NCBI RefSeq assembly: GCF_012863495.1
Contig: NZ_JAAVJL010000001.1
Coordinates: 620,001 to 684,000 of the forward strand
Direction: 5' to 3'
Length of the DNA stretch: 64,000 nt
From: Pseudanabaena yagii GIHE-NHR1
GTDB taxonomy: Bacteria > Cyanobacteriota > Cyanobacteriia > Pseudanabaenales > Pseudanabaenaceae
Shown here: positions 12,451-26,019 of the stretch, piece by piece
Position numbering within the stretch: position 1 is the first letter of the stretch
Layout: each line of letters opens with the position of its first letter
Notes under the pieces: generated by a model
What the model saw: the letters and a program-made list of their open reading frames with translations, nothing else
Database searches by the model: none
Told to the model about the DNA's origin: nothing
Translations under genes and position numbers: made by a program

Positions 12451-14187
12451 TTATAGGCGCTTAACTTTTTTGTCCATAACTTTTTTCTCAACTTCATTGA
12501 TTTGGACTTCTCGTAAGCGCGTTGCATAGGCTGGGAATGGGAATCCAACTAATAGAGGTGATGGAACTTCAGGCTGATGGATGAACATACTGCCAGATTT
12601 TAAAAGAAGCGATCGCTTCCGACAGGCTCCTGTTAAGAAGTTATACTCAGGACGTTCTACTTCGGCGGAATCAAGGCGACCGACTACACGTACGGCTGCT
12701 TGCCCGACGACGCGACGCTCGACCTCAGAGGCAGTTTGTTGTGCGCCAATTAAGATGATGCCTAGCGATCGCCCGCGTTCGGCAATTTCCACTAACAAAT
12801 CTTTGATTGGGCTACGACCTTCCTTGGGCGCATATTTATTCAATTCATCAAGAACGATAAAGACAACGGGATATTGTCCGCGCTTTTCCTTTTCCATGAA
12901 AAGCTTTTGTAACAATACGCCCACCACAAACTTTTGTGCTTTACTGCCGAGTTTATTGATATCCGCGATCGTTAATTGATATTCCGCCGCCAGAGGATCG
13001 AGCTTATACTTTTGCAACTCCTCCGCAGGTAGATCGCCGCGCACCAGATGCCCCATTTCATCAGCAATACCCCACATTCGACGAGTGAGTGCTTCGGCAG
13101 TCGCTGGAGCATTGCGTCCTAGCCATTTTTGATCGGGATTCTCTACCAACTTATCTTCGAGAAATTCAATCAAATCTCGAAAGGTTTCCACCTTATCCTT
13201 GCCATCTTCACCATAGCTATCATCTAAATCCAGACTAGTTCTCGGTAAAAATCCTAACTTCTTATCATATTTGTCATTATCCGCAGCTAGTCTGGCTAAG
13301 CGCTCCTCGACAATACTCGCTAAAAAGCCAATATTTCCCCGCTCTAGATCATCACCTGCAAACAGGAACCGAAATAGGCGATCGCGACAAAACTCACGCA
13401 TTCCCCACACATAGGCGGAAATATTATCGGAACGTTGATCGAGATGGGGTTCGATTTCCTGTGTGTTTTTCTTAGGTGCAACGCAAAACCTAACATCACG
13501 AAATGGCTCTACGGGCAGATCGAGAATGTGATAGCTTGCCCGATCCTCTGCCCGCATTTTGTTATTGGGTTTATCTAAGAAGAATAAATCTTCCCCCTTA
13601 ACGTTAAAAATTAGTGCCTTCGTATTCGCTCTCTTAGAACCTAATGCTGCTGAATTAAAAATGGAATGGAGAATAAACAGGGCAAAGGAAGTCTTTGTCG
13701 CCACCCCTGAGATGCCTGAAATATTGACATGAGCGCCCTTTGTGCCATCAATAAATTCGTAATTCAAATAGGCGGGACTACCATTTCGCATAATTCCTGC
13801 GGAGATACGTTGCTCCATACCATCGAAGTTCAGCGCAAAGCGAAGGTTCTCATCTTCAGCTAAATAGACAGCATCGCTGGGTTGTGGTGGTAAATATTCT
13901 TCAGGCTCAATGCGGGTAACTTGGATATGCGCGGCATAGGAGACATTTACGGGCATACTGCCAGTGGTAACGAGAAATGTATCCGTATCAAATTGGGTTC
14001 CTTCGTGGATAGTTCGCACATGATCGACGACACCATAGAAGTTGACGACACCTTTTTTATCGGGGCGATCGGTTTTCACCTGCACGACATCATCCAGACG
14101 TAGGACTTTGCCATCACTTACCGCCACCCAAAACTCAAGGGGGGTCGCATCTTTGGTTCCCAAGATATATCCAATAGGCTCGATCAT
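12451..14187 (-). CDS. HerA-like DUF87 ATPase with atypical P-loop
   Basis: The 578-residue protein has an N-terminal HAS-barrel-like region (about 1-110) and a HerA/FtsK-type ATPase core. Walker B is FIVLDELNKYAP (about residue 455) and a sensor/arginine-finger region GRSLGIILIGAQQ follows. At the expected Walker A position the sequence is GISGVATKTSFAL, where the GKT/S is replaced by TKTS: the lysine and hydroxyl residue survive but the glycine before the lysine is Thr. ATG at 14187 is chosen; the frame also opens at a TTG at 14214. HerA hexamers translocate DNA together with NurA nuclease, but no nurA is adjacent. DNA end processing or defence is inference. Confidence 0.78.
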   Translation of the reverse strand: MIEPIGYILGTKDATPLEFWVAVSDGKVLRLDDVVQVKTDRPDKKGVVNFYGVVDHVRTIHEGTQFDTDTFLVTTGSMPVNVSYAAHIQVTRIEPEEYLPPQPSDAVYLAEDENLRFALNFDGMEQRISAGIMRNGSPAYLNYEFIDGTKGAHVNISGISGVATKTSFALFILHSIFNSAALGSKRANTKALIFNVKGEDLFFLDKPNNKMRAEDRASYHILDLPVEPFRDVRFCVAPKKNTQEIEPHLDQRSDNISAYVWGMREFCRDRLFRFLFAGDDLERGNIGFLASIVEERLARLAADNDKYDKKLGFLPRTSLDLDDSYGEDGKDKVETFRDLIEFLEDKLVENPDQKWLGRNAPATAEALTRRMWGIADEMGHLVRGDLPAEELQKYKLDPLAAEYQLTIADINKLGSKAQKFVVGVLLQKLFMEKEKRGQYPVVFIVLDELNKYAPKEGRSPIKDLLVEIAERGRSLGIILIGAQQTASEVERRVVGQAAVRVVGRLDSAEVERPEYNFLTGACRKRSLLLKSGSMFIHQPEVPSPLLVGFPFPAYATRLREVQINEVEKKVMDKKVKRL

Positions 14188-14242
14188 GTCACTATGTTCT
14201 ACATTATTTCCCAAGTATATAGCGCTTTCCCAGTAAGTGAGG

Positions 14243-14289
14243 TATAGAGGCTTGTTTCCTCACTTTTGAAGGGGAAAACAAGCCTCTAT
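14243..14289. terminator. Hairpin between the HerA-like gene and the next gene
   Basis: TATAGAGGCTTGTTT (14243-14257) pairs with AAACAAGCCTCTAT (14276-14289). It lies directly downstream of the 14303-14734 gene (minus strand) and upstream of the HerA-like start, so it probably ends the former's transcript. Confidence 0.7.
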
Positions 14290-14302
14290 GGGAGAAGACA
14301 AA

Positions 14303-14734
14303 CTAAAACGGACGCAAATGGGGAAGAGTTTGCAATGATTCAAGGCATTGTTCTAGGGTGACATCTTGCATAAATTCCCAAAACTTTTCTGTGTGGCGCA
14401 TGTAAGCAACATTAAATCGATCGCTTCCCACATACTCAAATCGAGAGAACTTGTGTTCAGATGAAGATTCTTCACCTGTCAAGGGATTTTTATATTTATA
14501 GGTTCCACAAATGTAAAAGTAATTGCGATACCACTTGCCAAAAATATCTACCAAGTACATGATCTTGCCTTCTGGGGATGGCGGATGAATGCAATTAGGT
14601 TTGAGATCGTTGTCAATAATTTCTTGGAAACGCTCTTGCACTAATTTTTTCAGAGCTTCGGGTATTTTAGGACTTGGCTCTTTTTTGGGAGAATATACCC
14701 ATTCATACTTTGATCTTGATTTCGATCTTGCCAT
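14303..14734 (-). CDS. Conserved-looking hypothetical protein
   Basis: I do not recognise this 143-residue protein. It begins with a basic stretch (MARSKSRSKYEW), has a proline-rich segment (SPKKEPSPKIPEAL) and a central aromatic-rich part (WYRNYFYICGTYKYKNP) without membrane segments, and closes with an acidic helix. The frame has normal codon use and an ATG start. It is soluble and could bind nucleic acid given the basic N-terminus, but no function is claimed. A hairpin separates it from the HerA-like gene on the same strand. Confidence 0.65.
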   Translation of the reverse strand: MARSKSRSKYEWVYSPKKEPSPKIPEALKKLVQERFQEIIDNDLKPNCIHPPSPEGKIMYLVDIFGKWYRNYFYICGTYKYKNPLTGEESSSEHKFSRFEYVGSDRFNVAYMRHTEKFWEFMQDVTLEQCLESLQTLPHLRPF

Positions 14735-14860
14735 TTCTCGAAGTCCTCTCTAAATCTTTGTTTTAAACGCGATGATGATCGTTTTTAAATTTAATTATTT
14801 TAGCCGACTACCCGTTCAGAGACTAAATTTAAAATACTTGGATCAACATCATTTTTGATA

Positions 14861-15637
14861 ATGAAATTAACTTCTTCGGTCTTAGTAGCGATCGCGATCG
14901 CTACCACATTTTCCCCAAGAGCTTCTGAAGCTCTACCGAGGCTCAGCCTACAGAAAACGCAAAGTAATCTGACTCTAAACGCATCCTTAACTAAGCAGTC
15001 TCAAACAAGCCCAGTCTATTCCGTTCCACAGAATGCGCTTCTACTGGAAGCGGTTAAGAATGAGGATCTGGATTTAGCGAAACTGGCTTTATCTCGAAAC
15101 GCTGACCCTAACACTCTTGATAAAAATGAGGAAGAAGCCTTAAACGGTAGAGCTATTTTACAAATTGCGGCTGAGAACAATAGTCTGGAAATTGCCAAAC
15201 TATTAATTGCCTATGGGGCAAATGTGAATGGTAATCCCAAATATACCTATGTTGGCGGTACTCCCTTATCTACATCCGCAGCTATGGGGCATCTAGAAAT
15301 CGTGAAACTGTTAGTTAATAAAGGAGCCAAACTGGAGCTGGCGGCTGATGGCGGATATACGGCTCTTGATGAAGCGATCGCTGAAAATCGGGCTGAGGTG
15401 GTGCAATTTTTATTAGAACGTGGCATGAACCCTAACTATTACGTGGAGGGATATACGCCGCTTTATGACGCTGCTAGTCGTGGATATACCAACATCGTCC
15501 GTTTGCTGATCAAACATGGTGCGGATGTCAATTTTGGTAATAGCTTTGCGAAACCCTTAGCGATCGCTATCAAAAAAAGCCATCTCGAAATTATTGACAT
15601 CCTCAAAAAAGCAGGGGCAAGATCCGCAACTCAGTGA
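14861..15637 (+). CDS. Exported ankyrin-repeat protein
   Basis: The 258-residue protein starts with a signal peptide (MKLTSSVLVAIAIATTFSPRASEA) with likely cleavage near residue 24, so it acts in the periplasm or thylakoid lumen. From residue about 55 it holds five to six ankyrin repeats (for example TPLSTSAAMGHLEIVKLLV, TPLYDAASRGYTNIVRLLI). These repeats mediate protein binding; the partner is unknown. The ATG at 14861 follows a frame-open TTG at 14855, and the ATG is preferred as it starts the signal peptide. The next gene, ahcY, follows after about 50 bp on the same strand. Confidence 0.85.
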   Translation: MKLTSSVLVAIAIATTFSPRASEALPRLSLQKTQSNLTLNASLTKQSQTSPVYSVPQNALLLEAVKNEDLDLAKLALSRNADPNTLDKNEEEALNGRAILQIAAENNSLEIAKLLIAYGANVNGNPKYTYVGGTPLSTSAAMGHLEIVKLLVNKGAKLELAADGGYTALDEAIAENRAEVVQFLLERGMNPNYYVEGYTPLYDAASRGYTNIVRLLIKHGADVNFGNSFAKPLAIAIKKSHLEIIDILKKAGARSATQ

Positions 15638-15647
15638 TGGGGATTAG

Positions 15648-16979
<1,332 letters not shown>

Positions 16980-16993
16980 TCAAAAAGTCAACG

Positions 16994-17020
16994 AAAAGGG
17001 AGCGCTAAGCGCTCCCTTTT
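16994..17020 (+). terminator. Intrinsic terminator of ahcY
   Basis: AAAAGGGAGCGC pairs with GCGCTCCCTTTT around TAA, 14 bp after the ahcY stop. Confidence 0.88.
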
Positions 17021-17077
17021 CTGTCACTGCAATACTTCGCTACTTCCTTATATATATATAGTTGTTGCACATCGCGT

Positions 17078-17467
17078 TTAGAAAACATAATGCTCACCGC
17101 TAATGGCGTTAGTTCTGTTTTCTAACACTTTCGGCTGTGAGTTTTTTTGCCTTTTCTTAGTTGCACATCGCGTTGCATCAAGGTTAAGACCTAACTCAAG
17201 TTCTAAGACTTCTCGATACAAGAATAAAATCGCACTCAAAGTCTGATTTTGTGTTGATGCAGCCACATTTTCATTAACTGCCAAATGGGTCAAAAAGTCA
17301 TTGACTTCATCGCCACCCATTTCATGAGGATGTCGCTTGTTATGAAACAAAATAAACCGTCTAATCCACTGCACATAGGTTTCTTCGGTGCGGTAAGAAT
17401 AGTGCTTCACCCGTACGCGATCTCTAACGCGATCTAACAATTTTCGAGGCGGCGGCTCAGCTTGCAT
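17078..17467 (-). pseudogene. Truncated integron-type tyrosine recombinase (IntI N-terminal domain only)
   Basis: Only 129 residues remain where a full enzyme has about 320. Residues 1-100 match the SAM-like core-binding domain of integron integrases: DRVRDRVRVKHYSYRTEE, YVQWIRRFILFHNKRHP, EVNDFLTHLAV and the helix with SAILFLYREVLELEL. The sequence then changes character after NLDATR, and the catalytic domain with the R-H-R-Y residues is absent. The break falls at a direct repeat GTTGCACATCGCGTT (17064-17078 and 17160-17174) bracketing an insertion of about 81 bp that carries the inverted repeat TTAGAAAACA/TGTTTTCTAA. The gene points away from the cargo to its right, as intI does from its cassettes. 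A phage-type recombinase fragment is the alternative. Confidence 0.78.
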
Positions 17468-17530
17468 AATGAAGTTATCCAGAAACTAATCTAAATAATA
17501 TACTATGCTGTCAGGCTAACACGCCATTTG

Positions 17531-17690
17531 GGTGATTAGGCAGAATTTTTCCGTCTAATATCCTGTATAGGTTAAATAGCCAGAATTTTTCTGCATAACA
17601 CCCCCTATAGGGTGATTAGACAGAATCTTGACTTTCAGCCTATATTGCTTATAGTGACATTAGACAGAAACTTTCCATCTAATACATAGT
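17531..17690. repeat. Four degenerate 40-bp tandem repeats
   Basis: The motif CAGAA recurs at 17541, 17581, 17621 and 17665. Units are 40, 40 and 44 bp apart and read roughly GGTGATTAGACAGAATTTTT then CCGTCTAATATCCTATAG. Each unit is itself nearly palindromic (ATTAGACAGAA against TTTCCGTCTAAT). The array lies between the truncated integrase and its presumed cargo, where attI would be. A similar unit lies at 48604-48672. Confidence 0.75.
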
Positions 17691-18023
17691 TAGGCTAAAA
17701 TTTCCTAAGCAGTCTGCTCGCTGATCGCGTAGGGCGAGTTAATGCAATGTAAAAGTGTGTTTGAGAAGTTTAGCTTTGCAATAAATTGTAGGCTAAGAGC
17801 TTAAACTCTTACTTGGCGATTAGAACGGAACGAAAACCTTTGCGGTGAAAGATTACTAGTGGCGATCTCATTTCTAATTGACTCAGCACGTTCCCGTGAT
17901 TTAGTCATCGCATTTGCTCCACCATAGGGTTCACGCAAAATCAAATAATTTTGAATAATTAAGGCTTCATTATCTCTAGAACCTTGAGCAATCTGAGCAG
18001 CCGTTAAGCCCGATCGCGCGATC
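17689..18023. repeat. Direct repeat copy 1 (335 bp) of 21375-21709
   Basis: Every base from GTTAGGC at 17689 to GCGCGATC at 18023 aligns without gaps to 21375-21709 with a constant offset of 3686; only scattered substitutions differ. The repeat starts at the GTT core triplet of the attC-like site in the right-hand copy. It contains the last 74 codons of the LysM gene and 112 bp of its 3' flank. Confidence 0.9.
17801..18023 (-). pseudogene. 3' fragment of the LysM/lysozyme-like gene
   Basis: This is the C-terminal 74-codon fragment of the gene at 21487-22641, sharing its stop codon position and lacking any start, LysM domain or catalytic region. The match stops abruptly at 18023, after which a GTGCGTTA/TAACGCAC mini-repeat follows (18030-18053). 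Confidence 0.88.
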
Positions 18024-18029
18024 TTGTAA

Positions 18030-18053
18030 GTGCGTTAATACAATGTAACGCAC
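18030..18053. repeat. Mini inverted repeat GTGCGTTA-N8-TAACGCAC
   Basis: The arms GTGCGTTA and TAACGCAC are perfect. The same motif occurs at 49662-49685, and related forms at 32388-32408 and 32446-32467. It marks the right boundary of the LysM fragment. Confidence 0.7.
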
Positions 18054-18072
18054 CTCCTTTTTCCTTAGTAAA

Positions 18073-18486
18073 CTATTTTTGGCTAATCTCAAATGCTGAT
18101 TCGGATCTGTAAAAACACACATCGAATGCAAGAAAGAAGTTCATATGTCCCAATATTAGCGGCGCATATTTATCTTGAGTCCAAGCAAAAGCCAAATCTA
18201 CAGCAGGAAATTGTTCAACAGTGGCTTTGACAACCAATGCACGAGCTTCAAATCTAGCTAAATTCCCTCCTAATGGTAAAGACAGCCTTTGATTTTCCCA
18301 GACTGCACCCAATGCTAAACCCATTTCATACGGCAAGACATTAACACTAGAGCCAGTATCCAACAGACCCGAAACACTCAAAGATTGACTTTGATAAGTT
18401 AATGTCAGTGGTAAATATGGAAGAGTGCTTAATGCTCCAAGACTAGGATCTACCTCAGTGAAAGCAAATCTTACTTTACTAGCCAT
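18073..18486 (-). CDS. Retropepsin-like aspartic protease
   Basis: The 137-residue protein carries the single aspartyl-protease motif LLDTGSSVNVLPY (about residues 41-53) and a later hydrophobic LILGHMNFF, corresponding to the retropepsin psi-loop (I/L-L-G). Such one-motif proteases must dimerise to form the active site. There is no signal peptide. Its ATG lies inside the last codons of the upstream small gene (8-nt overlap), and the pair is a compact two-gene unit of a kind common in cyanobacterial accessory DNA. Substrate and role are unknown; a toxin-antitoxin-like or maturation role is only a thought. Confidence 0.75.
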   Translation of the reverse strand: MASKVRFAFTEVDPSLGALSTLPYLPLTLTYQSQSLSVSGLLDTGSSVNVLPYEMGLALGAVWENQRLSLPLGGNLARFEARALVVKATVEQFPAVDLAFAWTQDKYAPLILGHMNFFLAFDVCFYRSESAFEISQK

Positions 18487-18700
18487 GAGTCAATTCTTGT
18501 TTCTCTTTCAATGCTTGAGCTAAAATTGCAGCAGCTTCAAAAGAGTCATGTAAACCTTGTCTAGGAAGATCGTCTTGAATAGACATCGGTACAATACCAG
18601 ACTCTTTCAGCAACTCGGCTACAAGAAAGTTAAGTAATAAGAGCTTATCGGAGTGAGACAATTGCCTAATCATGGGAACAAATTGAGTAGTTGTCAGCAT
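18479..18700 (-). CDS. Small hypothetical protein paired with the retropepsin
   Basis: This 73-residue protein is not recognised. It is predominantly helical, with QLSHSDKLLLLNFLVAELLKE reminiscent of small antitoxin-like or addiction-module N-termini. It sits upstream of and overlaps the retropepsin gene by 8 nt, implying coupled translation. The start ATG is at 18700. Confidence 0.6.
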   Translation of the reverse strand: MLTTTQFVPMIRQLSHSDKLLLLNFLVAELLKESGIVPMSIQDDLPRQGLHDSFEAAAILAQALKEKQELTHG

Positions 18701-18787
18701 AGATTTTAAGAAAGCTATAGACCTTGATTTCTTGCACTCAATTCCAGTATAACATCACCTTCTCGCTAACCCGCATCCCCGAAAGCA

Positions 18788-18812
18788 GTCTAACACTGCG
18801 TTGGAGCCGACC
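18788..18812 (+). other. attC-like half site
   Basis: GTCTAACACTGCGTTGGAGC followed by CGACC fits the left half (R'' RYYYAAC then L'') of 60-bp-type attC sites. No complementary right half follows, so if it is a relic it is truncated. It lies in the 367-bp gap before the DGPF operon (18701-19067), which otherwise shows no gene and must contain that operon's promoter. Confidence 0.45.
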
Positions 18813-19067
18813 TAACCAAAATCGATCTGTAAAAGTCAAAACTTAACTGTGGCAGATCAACTAGACTGTTAGCCTGCTCAAGTAATCGATCATGGTCGGA
18901 TGGGTGATGTTTGGTTGGATTCGATTGCCACTCCACCAGCGCCTTGTTTAAATTTTTCTCAAAATAAATACAAACCCCTGTCGAAATGCCAGACTCTTGT
19001 TCGTCATAGCAGTAGAGAGCAGAGAAAACTTCTGTAATCTAATCAAACCCCTAACGGACAAGTTCTT

Positions 19068-19409
19068 ATGAAATACGCGATTCTGGTTTACGAGACTGAG
19101 CAAGATGTTGCTAACCGAGAAATGCAGATGCCTGCATACAACGCTTACTCACAGGCCCTCATTGATGCGGGAGTCATGGTAGGTGGCGCAGCACTTCATC
19201 CTAGTCATACAGGCACAACCATCCGTCTGCAAAACGGACAACGAAACGTTCAAGACGGCCCCTATGCTGACACAAAAGAACAACTGGGTGGCTTTTTTCT
19301 CATTGATGTTCCAGATCTAGACGTGGCTCTAGATTGGGCAGCTCGTTGTCCTGCTGCAAGTAATTGCGCTGTTGAAGTGCGTCCTTTGCTACCCACAACC
19401 CAAGAATAG
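19068..19409 (+). CDS. DGPF/YCII-related protein
   Basis: The 113-residue protein is a YCII-related (PF03795) domain. Its motif QDGPYADTKEQLGGFFLID is the DGPF signature of the class that is genomically linked to ECF42 sigma factors. Its biochemical role is unknown; the fold is ferredoxin-like and may be enzymatic or ligand-binding. The ATG start is preceded by a weak purine stretch. It opens a three-gene operon, 11 bp before the GST gene and two genes before the sigma factor, and is a likely member of the sigma factor's own target set. Confidence 0.88.
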   Translation: MKYAILVYETEQDVANREMQMPAYNAYSQALIDAGVMVGGAALHPSHTGTTIRLQNGQRNVQDGPYADTKEQLGGFFLIDVPDLDVALDWAARCPAASNCAVEVRPLLPTTQE

Positions 19410-19420
19410 GAGATTACTTG

Positions 19421-20038
19421 ATGAAACTCTATTATTTTCCACCCTCTCCAAACACCCGCAAAGTTCATGCTGTTGCCATTCATCTGGAACTACCGCTCGA
19501 ACTGCGATTGGTGGATTTGCAGAAAGGTGAACAACGTACCCCAGAGTTTGTGCAGTTAAATCCAACGGGGCGCACTCCAGTCTTGCAAGATGGCGAGTTT
19601 ATCCTGTGGGAATCCACTGCGATTATGCAATATTTGGCAAGTCAGGGGTCGAATTCTCTTTGGCCAGAAGTTCCGCAGATTCGGGCGGACATCATGCGCT
19701 GGCAAAGTTGGCAACTCGCCCACTGGTATCAGGTCTGTCAACCCTTGCAGTACGAGAACTTCGTCAAGCCTCTCTTGCAATTGGGAGAGCCTGATCTGCA
19801 AGTCGTGCAATCGGCAACTGCACGCTTTCATACAGAAGCGATCATCCTGAATCAGCACCTGGCAGAGCGTGAATTCTTAGTCAATGCCACCTTGACATTG
19901 GCTGACTTCTCCGTTGCCAGTGATTTAACCTATGCGGTGCCTGGGCGATTCCCCCTAGAAGATTATCCTCATATTCGCACTTGGTATAGTCGAATTGAGC
20001 AGTTACCCGCTTGGCAACAGACAGCACCGAGAGGTTAA
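19421..20038 (+). CDS. Glutathione S-transferase family protein
   Basis: The 205-residue protein has an N-terminal thioredoxin-like domain (MKLYYFPPSPNTRKVHAVA, with SPNTRK as the glutathione-site region, and NPTGRTPVLQDG with the cis-Pro, then ESTAIMQYLA) and an all-helical C-terminal domain (about 85-205). ATG at 19421 follows GGAG at 19409-19412; a TTG three bases upstream is in frame but less likely. It is embedded between the DGPF gene and the ECF42 gene, which suggests that detoxification of an electrophile or peroxide belongs to the same regulon. Substrate unknown. Confidence 0.87.
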   Translation: MKLYYFPPSPNTRKVHAVAIHLELPLELRLVDLQKGEQRTPEFVQLNPTGRTPVLQDGEFILWESTAIMQYLASQGSNSLWPEVPQIRADIMRWQSWQLAHWYQVCQPLQYENFVKPLLQLGEPDLQVVQSATARFHTEAIILNQHLAEREFLVNATLTLADFSVASDLTYAVPGRFPLEDYPHIRTWYSRIEQLPAWQQTAPRG

Positions 20039-20044
20039 ACACAG

Positions 20045-21274
20045 ATGGATGCACGTCGAGCGGCAGAATTGGCAGCCCGCAATTCCTATGGCAGGTTGGT
20101 GGCGTATCTAGCAGCCCAAACACGAGATGTGGCGGCTGCCGAAGATGCCCTCGGCGAGGCTTTCCTGACGGCCTTAAAAACTTGGACGGAGACCGGAGTT
20201 CCCAAAAATCCTGAAGCATGGCTGCTGGTCACAGCGAGACACCGATTGATTGACACCGCACGGCGATCGCAAGTTCAGGATAAAATCCTCAATACCTTCA
20301 AGTTGAGTGCATTGGAATCGCCAACTGAATTCTCTTTTGATGAGACGAACATTCCCGATGAGCGCCTGAAATTACTGTTCATTTGTGCTCACCCAGCGAT
20401 TGATCCCACCATTCATACTCCGTTGATGTTACAGACGGTGCTTGGTCTGAACGCAGCACAAATTGCTTCTGCGTTTCTGGTTGCACCTGCCACCATGAGC
20501 CAACGCCTAGTCAGGGCAAAGGCAAAGATTCGGAATGCCGGAATCGCGTTTGAAGTGCCAGAAGCGGAAGAATTGCCGACCCGACTGGCGGCTGTGTTAG
20601 AAGCGATTTACGCCGCGTATACCAATGCATGGGAAATGATAGACGGCGGTGATCCTCGGCATCAAGGGTTGGCGGAAGAAGCGATTTGGTTAGTCCGTTT
20701 GTGTATTCAGTTAATGCCTCAAGAACCGGAAGCACGAGGATTGCTGGCTCTCATGCTGTATTGCGAAGCTCGACGCGATGCTCGTCGCGTCTACGGTGCT
20801 TACATCCCCCTATTGCAGCAAGATACGCAGCTTTGGTCAAAGCCAATGATCGATGAAGCAGAACGCGAACTCTTTCAGGCAGCTACTTGTAACCAACTGG
20901 GACGATTTCAGCTTGAAGCTGCGATTCAATCGCTCCACGCCCAACGCACCGTCACCCAAGAGGTTAATTGGGAAACACTGGCATTGTTATACGAAGGATT
21001 GATTCAGCTTTCACCTACGCTCGGTGCATTCGTAAGTCATGCTGCGGCGATCGCTCAAGCCAAAGGATTAAACCAGGGTTTAGCACGGCTCGATGCATTG
21101 CCGACCGAAGCTGTAAAGAACTACCAACCCTATTGGGCACTGAAAGCTGATTTACTGAAGCAACTAGGGTACAAATCTGAAGCTCAGCAAGCTTACTCAC
21201 GGGCGATCGGCTTAACCGAGGGTCTTGCTATTCGTGAGTTTCTTCTCGATCAGTCTTCTCGATTAGTTGAATAG
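20045..21274 (+). CDS. ECF42-type RNA polymerase sigma factor
   Basis: The 409-residue protein has a short sigma-70 region 2 (about 10-75, with AAEDALGEAFLTALKTW and PEAWLLVTARHRLID), region 4 (about 110-165, VLGLNAAQIASAF ... ATMSQRLVRAKAKI) and a long TPR-like C-terminal extension (about 170-409). This layout together with the linked DGPF protein identifies the ECF42 group, whose C-terminal extension is needed for activity and which has no anti-sigma factor. None is visible here. It starts 6 bp after the GST stop. An attC-like site begins 19 bp after its stop, so it would be the last gene of a cassette. Confidence 0.9.
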   Translation: MDARRAAELAARNSYGRLVAYLAAQTRDVAAAEDALGEAFLTALKTWTETGVPKNPEAWLLVTARHRLIDTARRSQVQDKILNTFKLSALESPTEFSFDETNIPDERLKLLFICAHPAIDPTIHTPLMLQTVLGLNAAQIASAFLVAPATMSQRLVRAKAKIRNAGIAFEVPEAEELPTRLAAVLEAIYAAYTNAWEMIDGGDPRHQGLAEEAIWLVRLCIQLMPQEPEARGLLALMLYCEARRDARRVYGAYIPLLQQDTQLWSKPMIDEAERELFQAATCNQLGRFQLEAAIQSLHAQRTVTQEVNWETLALLYEGLIQLSPTLGAFVSHAAAIAQAKGLNQGLARLDALPTEAVKNYQPYWALKADLLKQLGYKSEAQQAYSRAIGLTEGLAIREFLLDQSSRLVE

Positions 21275-21293
21275 AATATATAAAGTTCCCGCA

Positions 21294-21381
21294 GGCTAAC
21301 AAGCCCAATGCACACCGACCGCACAGAAGTTATCGGTTGATGTTCTGGGTTACCTGCGGCGGGTGATTGGGGGCGTTAGAC
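21294..21381 (+). other. attC-like integron recombination site
   Basis: The 88-bp site runs from GGCTAAC to GTTAGAC, the latter fitting the R' consensus GTTRRRY. The arms pair in blocks CCCAAT/ATTGGG, CAC/GTG, CCG/CGG and CCGCA/TGCGG, with exactly one unpaired base between blocks (G 21310, A 21314, A 21318), all on the left arm. Extrahelical bases on that arm, an unpaired spacer (AAG opposite GGC) and an inner CAGAA/TTCTG hairpin are structural hallmarks of attC. Orientation relative to the integrase remnant is canonical. Confidence 0.8.
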
Positions 21382-21709
21382 TAAAATTTCCTAAGCAGTC
21401 TGATCGCCGATCGCGTAAGGCGAGTTAATGCAATGTAAAAGTGTGTTTGAGAAGTTTAGCTTTGCAATAAATTGTAGGCTAAGAGCTTAAACTCTTACTT
21501 GGCGATTAGAACGGAACGAAAACCTTTGCGGTGAAAGATTACCAGTGGCGATCGCATTTCTAATTGATTCCGCACGTTCTCTCGATTTGGTCATTGCATT
21601 TGCCCCACCATAGGTTTCGCGCAAAATCAAATAATTTTGAATAATTAAAGCCTCATTATCGCCAGAACCTTGAGCAATCTGAGCAGCCGTTAACCCCGAT
21701 CGCGCGATC
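21375..21709. repeat. Direct repeat copy 2 (335 bp) of 17689-18023
   Basis: This copy begins at the GTTAGAC core of the attC-like site and extends through the 3' flank and last 74 codons of the intact LysM gene. It is colinear without gaps with 17689-18023. Confidence 0.9.
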
Positions 21710-22641
21710 GCATCAGCAACACAACCAATCACATGACTGGGGCGATTGACATGGTGATCGAGTAACAGAGCAACGGCAAACTCGGAGGTGAGTAACTGCG
21801 AAAGCGCAAAGCCCTGCAAAGTCTGGGAGGGTCGAAAATAGAACTGATCGAGTCGGGAAACTGCATGGAGAACTTGGACGGACTGCACTAGCGCATCCAT
21901 ACCTGCGATCGCAAAGCGTAACGCCCAAATCGGTTGACGCATAATGTTTTTATCAGCAGCATTAACAAGTTGCTTGCCATTGAGGGAAAGCCAACCCGTC
22001 ACGCCATCCATCGATATGGTATCTACCCCAAACTGTCCAAAATAATATTGAAATTCCGTAGGATACCGTCTTTTTAAATTACTCAACAAAGCAGGTAACT
22101 CACCTGCTTGCCCTGCGGAGCCTAATGTCCATTGAAAGATACCAAAACTCAAATATTGATTGTCCCAAGTATTAATGGCATCGAGACTTCCTTCATTAGC
22201 AGACGTTACCAACATCACATTGATTTCTGAGGGACTCATTTGCAACTGTTGCAGCAACCCAGAGCCATAGATAATGAAATCACGCAGCTTAAAAATGCCG
22301 AACCGATATAGTCCCAGATCCTTAGTTTTAGCAAATCGCTCCTGCTGACCAGTATTGAGCAAATTTGCAATCAGATCACTGCCCACCGTCGTGAAGGAAA
22401 TCGCAATCTTATTGGGTGGATGAACTCCCTGCAAGGTATTTCGCACCATCGCCACTTCAGGATTTTGGGCGATCGGTGGTGTAGCAGGGTTAGGAATCAG
22501 TAAGCGCTGACCAATTTGCAAACTTACAGGATTCGTAATGTTATTAATCCTTGCAATCTCGCGCCAATCTCCATTTGCTCCCAAAAATCGCCTAGCTATA
22601 TTAGAAAGTGTGTCTCCAGCTTGAACAATATATTCCTGCAT
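21487..22641 (-). CDS. LysM protein with lysozyme-like domain
   Basis: The 384-residue protein starts with a LysM peptidoglycan-binding module (MQEYIVQAGDTLSNIARRFL through GQRLLIPN, residues 1-50), followed by a proline-rich linker and a domain of about 300 residues. In it, SANEGSLDAINTWD and LSFGIFQWT around residues 155-180 resemble a lysozyme/chitosanase-type active site with a candidate catalytic Glu. There is no signal peptide, so it may be a phage- or cargo-derived lysin, or be exported otherwise. Its 3' end is duplicated at 17801-18023. Glycan-cleaving activity is inference. Confidence 0.75.
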   Translation of the reverse strand: MQEYIVQAGDTLSNIARRFLGANGDWREIARINNITNPVSLQIGQRLLIPNPATPPIAQNPEVAMVRNTLQGVHPPNKIAISFTTVGSDLIANLLNTGQQERFAKTKDLGLYRFGIFKLRDFIIYGSGLLQQLQMSPSEINVMLVTSANEGSLDAINTWDNQYLSFGIFQWTLGSAGQAGELPALLSNLKRRYPTEFQYYFGQFGVDTISMDGVTGWLSLNGKQLVNAADKNIMRQPIWALRFAIAGMDALVQSVQVLHAVSRLDQFYFRPSQTLQGFALSQLLTSEFAVALLLDHHVNRPSHVIGCVADAIARSGLTAAQIAQGSGDNEALIIQNYLILRETYGGANAMTKSRERAESIRNAIATGNLSPQRFSFRSNRQVRV

Positions 22642-22704
22642 GGCTGCCTCACTGTATTTTTAACAAAGCGAGCAAGCTCACTCACTCACTCTATTACTAT
22701 TAGC

Positions 22705-23382
22705 TTAAAAATTGAACGTCTCAAACTCTACTGGCTTAAAGAGCATATTGCGATCGATCGCTGAAAAAACTTTATGATTCGTTTTCTCTGAATTTACACA
22801 TTTACAGACCAGCTTAGCAACATCCGCACGGTGAATAATCCCCGATATCGTAGGATCTTCCGTAAGCACAGCATTACCCGTCGCTGGCTCCGATTTTAGC
22901 CCTCCTGGACGAATAATCGTGTAGGTCAAGCCACTTGCCACGAGATGCTGCTCCGCCTTTTCCTTTTCCTTGAGAATTGCCCCCAAGGTCGCTAAAACCT
23001 GTGGAGCCAGCGCCACTACACTATTGCCGCTACCAATCGAAGAAACGAGAATAAATTTCTGAACTCCCGCCTTCACAGCCAGATCGATCAGATTTTTATT
23101 GCCTTCACAATCTGCTCTTTCGCCGCGATCGCTAGGCAGACCACCCATCGTCGTAATCACGATATCGATATCCCCTACTTTCGCGATCGCCGCTTCTAGT
23201 TCCGCAGCATTGAGCGCATCACCAAAGACAACCTTTGCCCCTAGAGCTTCTAGCTCCACCGCATAGGTAGGATTGCGTAAAAGGACAGTTAAATTTACCG
23301 ATGGTGGTTCATTTTCCAGCAAAAGCTTGGCAACTTCTCGCCCAACACCGCGACTCGAACCTGCTAAAAAAATATTCTGCAT
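22705..23382 (-). CDS. NAD(P)-binding atypical SDR protein
   Basis: The 225-residue protein has a Rossmann nucleotide motif at the N-terminus (IFLAGSSRGVGREVAKLLL), a VVFGDALNAAELEAAI segment, VITTMGG and a C-terminal YTIIRPGGL typical of atypical short-chain dehydrogenases (NAD(P)H-binding, DUF2867/Ycf39-like side). The Ser-Tyr-Lys catalytic set is not evident: SSIGSGNS is present but no YxxxK follows. ATG at 23382 is preferred over an in-frame TTG at 23406. It lies 54 bp downstream of map on the same strand. The substrate is unknown; it may be a chaperone-like or quinone-related reductase. Confidence 0.8.
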   Translation of the reverse strand: MQNIFLAGSSRGVGREVAKLLLENEPPSVNLTVLLRNPTYAVELEALGAKVVFGDALNAAELEAAIAKVGDIDIVITTMGGLPSDRGERADCEGNKNLIDLAVKAGVQKFILVSSIGSGNSVVALAPQVLATLGAILKEKEKAEQHLVASGLTYTIIRPGGLKSEPATGNAVLTEDPTISGIIHRADVAKLVCKCVNSEKTNHKVFSAIDRNMLFKPVEFETFNF

Positions 23383-23436
23383 AATCTTGAGTTTTACTAA
23401 TCCCAAAACGCTGCGTTGCAGCGCCTTGGAAATTGT

Positions 23437-24282
23437 TTAGATTTTGTTGCGATCGGTAAAAATTTCATAGCCAGTCTCAGTCACCAAAACCGTATGTTCA
23501 AACTGAGCCGAAAGCTGATTGTCCACTGTTACAGCCGTCCACTTATCAGCCAAAATTCTGACTCGCTTAGTTCCCGCATTCAAGATTGGCTCGATCGCTA
23601 AGGTCATCCCCGGACGAAAACGCACATTAGGCAATTGATGGGTACGGAAATTAAATACCGATGGCTCTTCATGGAGATTTCGACCAACACCATGTCCTGT
23701 AAAGTCTTCAACGATTGCAAAACCATTAGCCTTGACATGATCCTCGATCGCCCCAGCTAAATCGAGCATACAGTTACCGGGTTTGACCTGCTCAATACCC
23801 TTATATAGTGCTTCCTCAGCTACACGCATCAACTTAGCAGCCTTTTCGCTAATTGTGCCTACACCCACCGTGATGCAAGAATCGCCATGAAACCCATTTT
23901 TAAAAGCACCAGTATCGATCTTGACCAGATCACCTAGCTTAATGACCTTTTTAGCGTTAGGAATACCATGGACGACTTCGTGATTGATACTAGAGCAAAT
24001 GCTGGCAGGAAAACCACAATATCCTTTAAAACTAGGAACAGCACCCATTTCCCGAATGCGTTTCTCGGCATAAGCATCGAGATCCATCGTCGTCATCCCA
24101 GGAGCAATGATTTCGGAAATCTCCTTAAGTACCGTAGCGACAATGCGAGATGATTCACGCATATAGTCCAACTCACGTTGCGACTTGATTTCAATACCTT
24201 TAGTTTGCTTAGGGGCAGCTTGCTTAGAAGCTTTTTTGCTTTCTGCGCTCGGTTTTGATCGCAGAGCACTAAGAATATTCAT
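23437..24282 (-). CDS. map: Type I methionine aminopeptidase
   Basis: The 281-residue enzyme removes the initiator methionine from nascent proteins. The five metal ligands are visible: Asp of VKIDTGAF, Asp of FHGDSCI, His of FTGHGVGR, Glu of LAIEPIL and Glu of AQFEHTV. An N-terminal extension of about 30 residues rich in Lys/Ser/Ala ([20 protein letters not shown]) precedes the catalytic domain and may contact the ribosome; it lacks the cysteines of the zinc-finger extension found in some MetAP1c. It is transcribed divergently from the PilT-type gene. Confidence 0.94.
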
Positions 24283-24439
24283 TAATTATTTGAGGATAGT
24301 ATTTACAACAGCTAATATATTTTTAGCCTATGAGGTAACAGGATTGGTTATTTTTAGGTCAAATCGCACAATTTGACTAGCAAAACTCTCATCACTAAGC
24401 CTGCTGCCTAACCAAAATGTTTAAGAACGAGGTTCAACT

Positions 24440-25936
24440 ATGACGCAATCTGGGATGCCTCCCGTACCGCCACCTTCCTCTGGGGGTGGTGTACCACAAC
24501 AGCCACGTAATCCCGCCGCACCACCACCCGCCCAGCAGCGTGTCGCTCCTCCCAACAATCCTCAAATACCTCCTAATCCCGCAGCTCAGCAGCGTGTTGC
24601 TCCCACTGCTCAAGGAGCTGCTGGTCAAGTGCGTGCGGTTCCAAATCCTGCTCAACAGCAGGCTGCACAGCAAGCTCAACTACAACAGGCTCAACTACAA
24701 GCAAAACAGGCTCAGGCGGCAGCAGCAGCACGCCAAGCCCAAATGGCAATCCCCACAGATACCCAGATTACAAGCGTTCCCCCACCTCCTAACCCCCGCC
24801 CTCCAATTCGTCCAGGTCCACCTCCAAACTTACCAGGGTTAGGTGTGCCAGCGATTTTACAGCGTAGTTCAGGGCAACCCACCCTTGCTCAAATTGTCAA
24901 GGATGCCCATGAGCAAGGATGTTCTGACATTCATGCTGGCGTAAATGAACCAGTGCGTTTTCGGAGTCGTGGCTTGATGGTGACACAGGAGCAATATCCC
25001 GTTCCCGACAAGCAAACTTTTGATACATGGCTGACCGAAATTATGGATGATAAACAAATCCAGCAATTTCGCGACACCTTAGAATTTGATGGTGCAACCC
25101 AGTACGAATTTGCCCGTTGTCGGATTAATATCTTTGATTCGTTACGGGGCCCTGCGATGGTTTTGCGACTGATCCCCCTCAAGATTCTGTCCATCGATCA
25201 ACTTGGTTTACCTGAAGTATTCCGAGAGCTTTGTTACACCCACAAAGGTTTGATCCTTGTCACAGGTCCTACTGGTTCAGGGAAGTCTACGACCCTAGCG
25301 GCAATGGTGGACTTTATCAATACGGAAATGCAGAAGCACTTAATTTCCATCGAAGACCCCATTGAATTTGTCCACCAAAGTAAAAAAGCGCTGATCAAAC
25401 AACGGGAAGTAGGTATTCATACTCTCAAGTTCGATAATGCACTCAAGGCAGCTTTGCGTGAAGATCCCGATATCATTCTGATTGGGGAAATGCGCGACAA
25501 AGAAACTGTGAACACAGCGCTGAAAGCCGCCCAAACTGGTCACTTAGTATTCGGAACACTCCACACGAATAGTGCAGTTAAAACCATTGAGCGGATTCTG
25601 AATCTCTATGAACCTGAACAACAGGGACCAATGCGAATTCAGGTGGCGGAATCCTTGGTGGGTGTTATTGCTCAGTCTCTGGTGCGGACTACCGATGGCA
25701 AACGTGCAGCAGTTCATGAAATCATGATCAATACTGATGCGGTGCGTGACTATATCAAACGTGGTGAAGTAGACGAGATTGAGGCAATCATTCCTAAATG
25801 CACCTATGAGGGAATGGTCAATATGAACCAGTCTCTCTATAAGCTCTATGAGGATGGACGCATTACGGAAGAAACAGCCGTAGAGAACTCGCCGAAGCCC
25901 AACGAAATGGCGCAAATGTTGCGTGGTCGTATGTAG
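24440..25936 (+). CDS. PilT-type type IV pilus retraction ATPase with Pro/Gln-rich N-terminus
   Basis: The 498-residue protein has an unusual N-terminal region (1-145) composed almost entirely of Pro, Gln, Ala and Gly, followed by a standard PilT core. The core shows ILVTGPTGSGKST (Walker A, about residue 278), the Asp box ISIEDPIEF, Walker B DPDIILIGEMRD and the His box TGHLVFGTLHTNS, all intact. It should power pilus retraction for twitching or phototaxis. The low-complexity N-terminus resembles PilT2-type cyanobacterial paralogues rather than the minimal PilT1; that subtype call is inference. Two tandem hairpins follow. Confidence 0.9.
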   Translation: MTQSGMPPVPPPSSGGGVPQQPRNPAAPPPAQQRVAPPNNPQIPPNPAAQQRVAPTAQGAAGQVRAVPNPAQQQAAQQAQLQQAQLQAKQAQAAAAARQAQMAIPTDTQITSVPPPPNPRPPIRPGPPPNLPGLGVPAILQRSSGQPTLAQIVKDAHEQGCSDIHAGVNEPVRFRSRGLMVTQEQYPVPDKQTFDTWLTEIMDDKQIQQFRDTLEFDGATQYEFARCRINIFDSLRGPAMVLRLIPLKILSIDQLGLPEVFRELCYTHKGLILVTGPTGSGKSTTLAAMVDFINTEMQKHLISIEDPIEFVHQSKKALIKQREVGIHTLKFDNALKAALREDPDIILIGEMRDKETVNTALKAAQTGHLVFGTLHTNSAVKTIERILNLYEPEQQGPMRIQVAESLVGVIAQSLVRTTDGKRAAVHEIMINTDAVRDYIKRGEVDEIEAIIPKCTYEGMVNMNQSLYKLYEDGRITEETAVENSPKPNEMAQMLRGRM

Positions 25937-25954
25937 CTTTGAAGCAGATAGATC

Positions 25955-26019
25955 TTGTGCTACCCACGTAACGGATAGCACAAGCAGATGAAGCACTGTG
26001 CAAAGCACGGTGCTTCATC
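25955..26019 (+). terminator. Two tandem hairpins after the PilT-type gene
   Basis: TTGTGCTA/TAGCACAA (25955-25983) is followed by GATGAAGCACTGTG paired with CACGGTGCTTCATC (25987-26019, one G-U). They lack a long T-run but separate this gene from mnmG. Confidence 0.6.

Follow-up and report, generated by a model that had tools for sequence, protein, structure and literature searches.

The operon of a DGPF/YCII protein, a glutathione S-transferase (GST) and an ECF42-type sigma factor described here is very likely a single integron cassette, which would be moved by the integrase IntI and would transcribe itself from its own TGTCGA/CGTC promoter. The operon lies in a 64-kb window (the whole stretch of DNA analysed) on the 3.69-Mb contig C1 of a 5.57-Mb genome, where it forms the second cassette after a conserved attI site and a broken intI gene. 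Its mobility as a cassette is well supported by the sequence comparisons set out below.

All three open reading frames lie on the + strand, closely packed. The DGPF/YCII gene (19068–19409; PF03795 (YCII), 82.2 bits) is followed after 11 bp by the GST gene (19421–20038; PF02798 (GST_N), 62.1 bits), taking ATG 19421 as its start, TTG 19418 being open too, and after 6 bp more by the gene for an ECF42-type sigma factor with a C-terminal extension (20045–21274; PF20239 (DUF6596), 99.7 bits; PF04542 (Sigma70_r2), 33.5 bits). The three-gene unit reported by the first-pass annotation is thus real, with matching Pfam families. That annotation had also singled out the position of the GST gene between its two partners; the arrangement holds here, and is neither peculiar to this genome nor essential. 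Among 29 operon loci fetched (the window, L035–L042 and L162–L181), two are ended by contig ends, and the same gene order, which the annotation suggested looking for elsewhere, is present in 22 of the 27 that can be read. The other five have no GST gene (L037, L172, L174, where a remnant is left, L176 and L181). In L042 a gap of ~740 bp separates GST from sigma, the GST of L035 and of L036 contains an internal stop, and, in the same 27-locus comparison, the DGPF gene of L163 has a frameshift. Nine additional named loci carry GST in L201 only, and the gene is absent in all five named loci from outside cyanobacteria.

The nearest solved structure to the GST is 1aw9 (GST III, 2.5e-27). Position 9 is a serine in all 22 copies listed, with residues read off tblastn output; we take it to be the serine that serves in catalysis in theta- and phi-like enzymes. 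The dN/dS values of 0.05–0.18 for the operon genes across the pairs compared indicate purifying selection. PADLOC gave no match on the three operon proteins, and the detoxification role proposed in the first-pass annotation is a guess from the GST and YCII families alone.

The sigma factor, the single match of its own sequence in a search of the genome, is a protein of 409 residues with region 2 (Sigma70_r2 at 33.5 bits against a cut-off of 24) and DUF6596. Region 4 falls short of its threshold in the window protein (Sigma70_r4_2, 19.5 bits against a cut-off of 25.7) and is detected at E ≤ 0.01 in 28 of 35 aligned relatives, all 35 of which have DUF6596. The predicted model, with a mean pLDDT of 86.5, shows helical repeats running through the C-terminal half to the end; TPR_8 scores in this protein at E 0.0016 only, under its cut-off, and a comparison of the predicted fold with the PDB gave no match at E ≤ 0.001, the best being TPR proteins at E 0.0015 and above. 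ECF42 sigma factors have a TPR-rich C-terminal extension of ~200 residues, an adjoining YCII/DGPF gene and a TGTCG...CGTC promoter type ahead of that gene; the window shows a comparable extension, the neighbouring gene (19068–19409) and the promoter motif.

The attC-like site that the first-pass annotation placed beside the operon proved to be real (attC_B), and a second site (attC_A), an attI region and the broken intI lie to the left. Rfam at gathering thresholds gave no match in window positions 14000–26000, and a covariance model for attC was therefore built from array loci: 19 sites from seven same-genus loci, one of the sites coming from contig C5 of the same genome, with the window excluded. 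The training sites were picked by eye after a script scan with a hand-made score, which also matched reversed control sequence and was used for picking sites only; a second model, R2, included the window's own sites and served for wider screening only. Over the 64 kb, the attC model returns two matches at E up to 5, and these flank the operon on the left and on the right, so the operon fills one gene cassette. Across the 5.57-Mb genome there are at least 7 matches at E ≤ 0.01 (150 of 805 first-look candidates scored).

The left-hand site, attC_A (18788–18874; 70.9 bits, E 1.1e-17), was modelled on the bottom (−) strand and contains mispairs in its stem. The right-hand site, attC_B (21294–21381, − strand; 57.9 bits, E 5.9e-14), folds as a bottom strand and has its crossover, G|TTAGAC, at 21375/21376. 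Between the attI and attC_A crossovers lies cassette A (17690–18868; 1,179 bp), which holds the copied end of a LysM gene together with an ORF in reverse orientation that matches no Pfam family. From there, the next crossover closes cassette B (18869–21375, + strand; 2,507 bp), with a leader, the promoter, the DGPF, GST and ECF42 genes, and attC_B minus its last bases. A single cassette spanning 17690–21375 was considered and is ruled out by the clear attC_A. A 300-bp direct repeat (93%) of the LysM gene end is found at 17689–17988 and 21375–21674, and both copies start at a crossover, one directly after attI and the other directly after attC_B.

The attI region (17470–17689) has four repeats spaced 40–44 bp apart (17526–17693) and a crossover, G|TTAGGC, at 17689/17690. 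When 14 regions lying upstream of intI are aligned, ten of them (the window and nine from the same genus) share their sequence as far as ACATAGTT and diverge beyond it, the pattern expected of an attI with differing first cassettes; the four more distant rows show lower likeness throughout. The four repeats are similar in the same-genus rows aligned and are possible integrase-binding sites. The adjoining intI (17078–17467, − strand; TIGR02249, 116.8 bits) is truncated to its first ~98–106 residues, without the catalytic domain: the match spans positions 1–97 of the 315 of the profile, under the full-length cut-off of 265. At the break sits a 96-bp repeated element (17079–17173), with a 97.9% copy near G000:C1:2902649, and intI homology restarts at 17174, past the element. 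There is also a 15-bp direct repeat, at 17064 and 17160. Contig C5 of the same genome encodes a complete IntI of 323 residues, whose N-terminus has 91% identity to the local fragment; because the local gene is truncated, this second IntI would be needed in trans to recombine the operon cassette. On C5, the complete intI and attI are followed by a first cassette of ~5.3 kb with two genes (L034:10245–15524), one for a CHAT-domain protein, in which an EAD10 match is under the cut-off, and one for an NB-ARC/TPR protein with the effector-associated domain EAD10; its content resembles a defence module packaged as a cassette. Three more attC matches within 7 kb at G000:C1:3407660–3414363 are perhaps another cassette cluster.

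Close copies of the cassette occur in other families. A search with the sigma protein over 388 genomes of the class, a sample from a larger group, gave as the closest proteins in other families those of G306 (93%), G254 (90%) and G352 (89%), with G167 adding a fragment at 93%; the seven same-genus copies have 79–81% protein identity, and the same-genus operons ~74–76% DNA identity to the window. The cassette DNA of these four genomes, from three other families, is 86–94% identical to the window, and their host DNA for SAHH, a housekeeping gene, is 71–72% identical to it; for SAHH the seven same-genus genomes stand at 84–89%. DNA similarity to the window runs over 18869–21381 in G254 (L163, 86%), over 18865–21379 in two pieces in G352 (L164, 92 and 89%) and over 18857–21299 in G306 (L162, 90%); G167 matches 20612–21382 at 94% and, on a second contig, 18868–20090 at 89%. 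In L162, L163, L164 and L238, the similarity breaks off at the cassette borders or close to them.

The copies also have their own recombination sites. Both sides are flanked by attC in G254 and G352. In G167, the start of the cassette shares a contig with an attC and a complete intI, and its end lies with an attC on another contig. G306 has the upstream attC, and group II intron sequence (RF02001, RF01998) at L162:8098–8790 breaks up the downstream one. More diverged copies (74–76% DNA) in G288 and G286 have attC at both ends, that downstream in G288 being cut by a contig end (22.8 bits) and the two cassette ends of G286 lying on separate contigs. A stretch of L170 that matches window positions 21296–21378 was rejected as the attC belonging to that cassette and is the upstream attC. 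In total, cassettes are found in seven genomes with four family labels, including the window. The sequence just inside the upstream border is common to all seven copies, and the 30 bases outside it differ between copies, except in G352 (L164) and G288 (L170), which are alike at the end. The G306 DGPF gene (L162:10709–11035) has a dS of 0.91 to the window, against 0.23 for GST and 0.27 for sigma, as if exchanged separately. A number of the contigs with cassettes are short fragments of drafts or MAGs; the safest basis for the cross-family claim is formed by the window contig (3.69 Mb), C1 of G306 (7.3 Mb, from a genome listed with 5% contamination) and C8 of G167 (67 kb).

These comparisons bear on whether the unit is an ordinary chromosomal ECF42 operon that is flanked by chance by leftover attC sites from a decayed integron, with no part for these sites in its movement. 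Such an origin would agree with the broken local intI and with the many operon copies that have no attC, but it leaves unaccounted for the cross-family DNA similarity that ends at or near the crossovers, the attC sites flanking copies in six other genomes and the cassette start common to the copies, and we consider it very improbable. The earlier suggestion that the operon moved as a unit is supported by a cassette bounded by two attC crossovers, by its close copies in other families and by their shared start.

Copies outside integrons are nonetheless numerous. Eight same-genus or same-family operon loci have no adjoining attC, the weak match of L042 (23 bits) being ~4 kb off, and L166–L169, L173–L177 and L179–L181 gave no attC match. 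At the place of the good attC of L170, the site in L171 is weak (24 bits), perhaps a decayed border; an attC lies ~1 kb downstream of the operon in L172, and in Nostoc sp. T09 (L190) there is a weak upstream one (22.8 bits). Since most other copies are without an adjoining attC, the operon is also found, and spreads, outside integrons. In a tree of 38 sigma proteins, the window, G306, G254 and G352 form a clade (96/93), the seven same-genus copies form a separate clade (100/100), and the G288 copy pairs with the attC-poor copy of G146 (L171; 100/99), so that the cassette copies do not form a single clade.

The unit might have been spread between families on plasmids or transposons, or by homologous exchange of longer stretches, with the attC sites as passengers. 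The same-genus copies do lie in differing flanks without attC, as compared by eye, and by our own reading of an ORF a transposase gene stands at the contig end beside the broken G167 copy. Yet in L162, L163, L164 and L238 the similarity stays inside the cassette, and neither the 72,556 plasmid records nor the 50,697 phage records contain a full cassette copy: three plasmid records match 3–5% of it, in two cases at attC_B, and the phage records give no match. Spread in larger pieces is therefore improbable, though less so than a chance position between remnants. Movement as a cassette is the reading we retain.

Upstream of the DGPF gene, 63 bp ahead of its start codon, is a predicted ECF42-type promoter, TGTCGA-N17-CGTC (18979–19005, + strand). 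Within 150 bp upstream of DGPF, TGTCGA-N17/18-CGTC or CGTT is conserved in 34 of 36 loci (28 with CGTC and 6 with CGTT; absent in L198 and L202), with 17-bp spacing in 33 of the 36, and 57 of 7200 random 150-bp pieces from the same loci carry the motif. The cassette contains no second exact TGTCGA-N15-18-CGTC. This pattern has 24 matches in the 5.57-Mb genome against 43 for a reversed control pattern, and a genome-wide regulon read through it was rejected for want of any excess. In 18700–21500, the three sigma-70-like promoters found (2.6 expected) and the one terminator found (2.5 expected) are at chance level. We infer from this arrangement that the sigma factor activates its own operon. A cautionary case is S. 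meliloti, where promoters dependent on the ECF42 factor RpoE10 have the form TGTCGG...CGTC, resembling the cassette promoter, the motif of the YCII–sigma operon overlaps the transcription start, and overexpressed RpoE10 did not raise the expression of that operon (PMC6180224). The failure of RpoE10 on its own operon counts against autoactivation. What the first-pass annotation called self-contained is supported as to layout, with one conserved ECF42-type promoter (34 of 36 loci), no second exact motif and sigma-70-like sites at chance level, and is weakened as to self-activation by the S. meliloti result.

The same result would suit a fixed, fossil cassette that is transcribed by way of the array or of standard sigma-70 promoters and whose sigma factor does not use the TGTCGA site. 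The broken local intI, the mispairs in the attC_A stem and the three sigma-70-like sites, though these are at chance level, would also fit. Such a relic is unlikely, if the most credible of the alternatives, given the 17-bp promoter spacing kept in 33 of 36 loci, the purifying selection on the genes and the complete IntI elsewhere in the genome.

For the preferred reading, a mobile and self-transcribing cassette, we propose the following sequence of events. IntI, supplied in trans from contig C5, would recombine the cassette through the folded bottom strand of attC_B, and after insertion its transcription would be independent of the array promoter. The TPR-like C-terminal extension, perhaps with the DGPF protein, would switch the sigma factor on, an activation proposed for ECF42 (PMC8999054). 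The sigma factor would then direct RNA polymerase to 18979–19005, so that DGPF, GST and its own gene are transcribed. Because sigma factor, promoter and effectors are all in the cassette, regulator, promoter and effectors would move together. The output, the weakest step, is probably a response to electrophile or oxidative stress using the GST, a guess from the gene families. More generally, we lean towards the view that integrons move whole self-activating regulons, each with its own polymerase specificity factor, a matching promoter and effectors, which would work anywhere in an array and in every host with a core polymerase able to use that sigma factor.

Integrons in cyanobacteria are already known (PMC2426708 and PMC8618304), and a TIGR02249 integrase is above the cut-off in 124 of the 388 class genomes against none of 14 control genomes. 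The cassette would be a tangible example of a whole regulatory circuit, not a single gene, being carried and spread by an integron. If integrons do move such regulons, they are a route for ECF sigma circuits among cyanobacterial families, and cassette expression need not rely on the array promoter; cassette spread would be one mechanism for the patchy distribution of ECF42 operons in cyanobacteria. With attC-flanked and attC-free copies in one phylum, both the origin of such a unit, from operon to cassette or by fixation of a cassette, and cassette regulation independent of the array promoter become testable. The literature searched, with most subscription papers outside it, gave no clear account of sigma-factor or multi-gene integron cassettes beyond the term in one reference title, which is weak evidence that a cassette of this kind is unreported.

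As in toxin–antitoxin integron cassettes, which have their own promoter and self-regulation, more than one gene shares the cassette, but no toxin or antitoxin family was matched, and a positive sigma-factor loop is proposed. With integron gene cassettes in general it shares the attC at the 3′ end, the GTT crossovers, the position in an array after attI beside intI and the occurrence of the same cassette between different neighbours. Such cassettes are mostly of one ORF, some having two or none and some their own promoters (PMC8618304); unlike a typical one, the operon cassette has three genes in ~2.5 kb, among them a sigma factor, and a likely promoter. Its nearest counterparts among regulators are the ECF42 factors Sven_0747 of S. 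venezuelae, ECF-10 of P. putida and RpoE10 of S. meliloti, which have the same long TPR-like C-terminal extension, an adjoining YCII gene and the TGTCG...CGTC promoter type (PMC8999054 and PMC6180224). Unlike those systems, the operon in the window has a GST gene between YCII and sigma and is packaged as a cassette.
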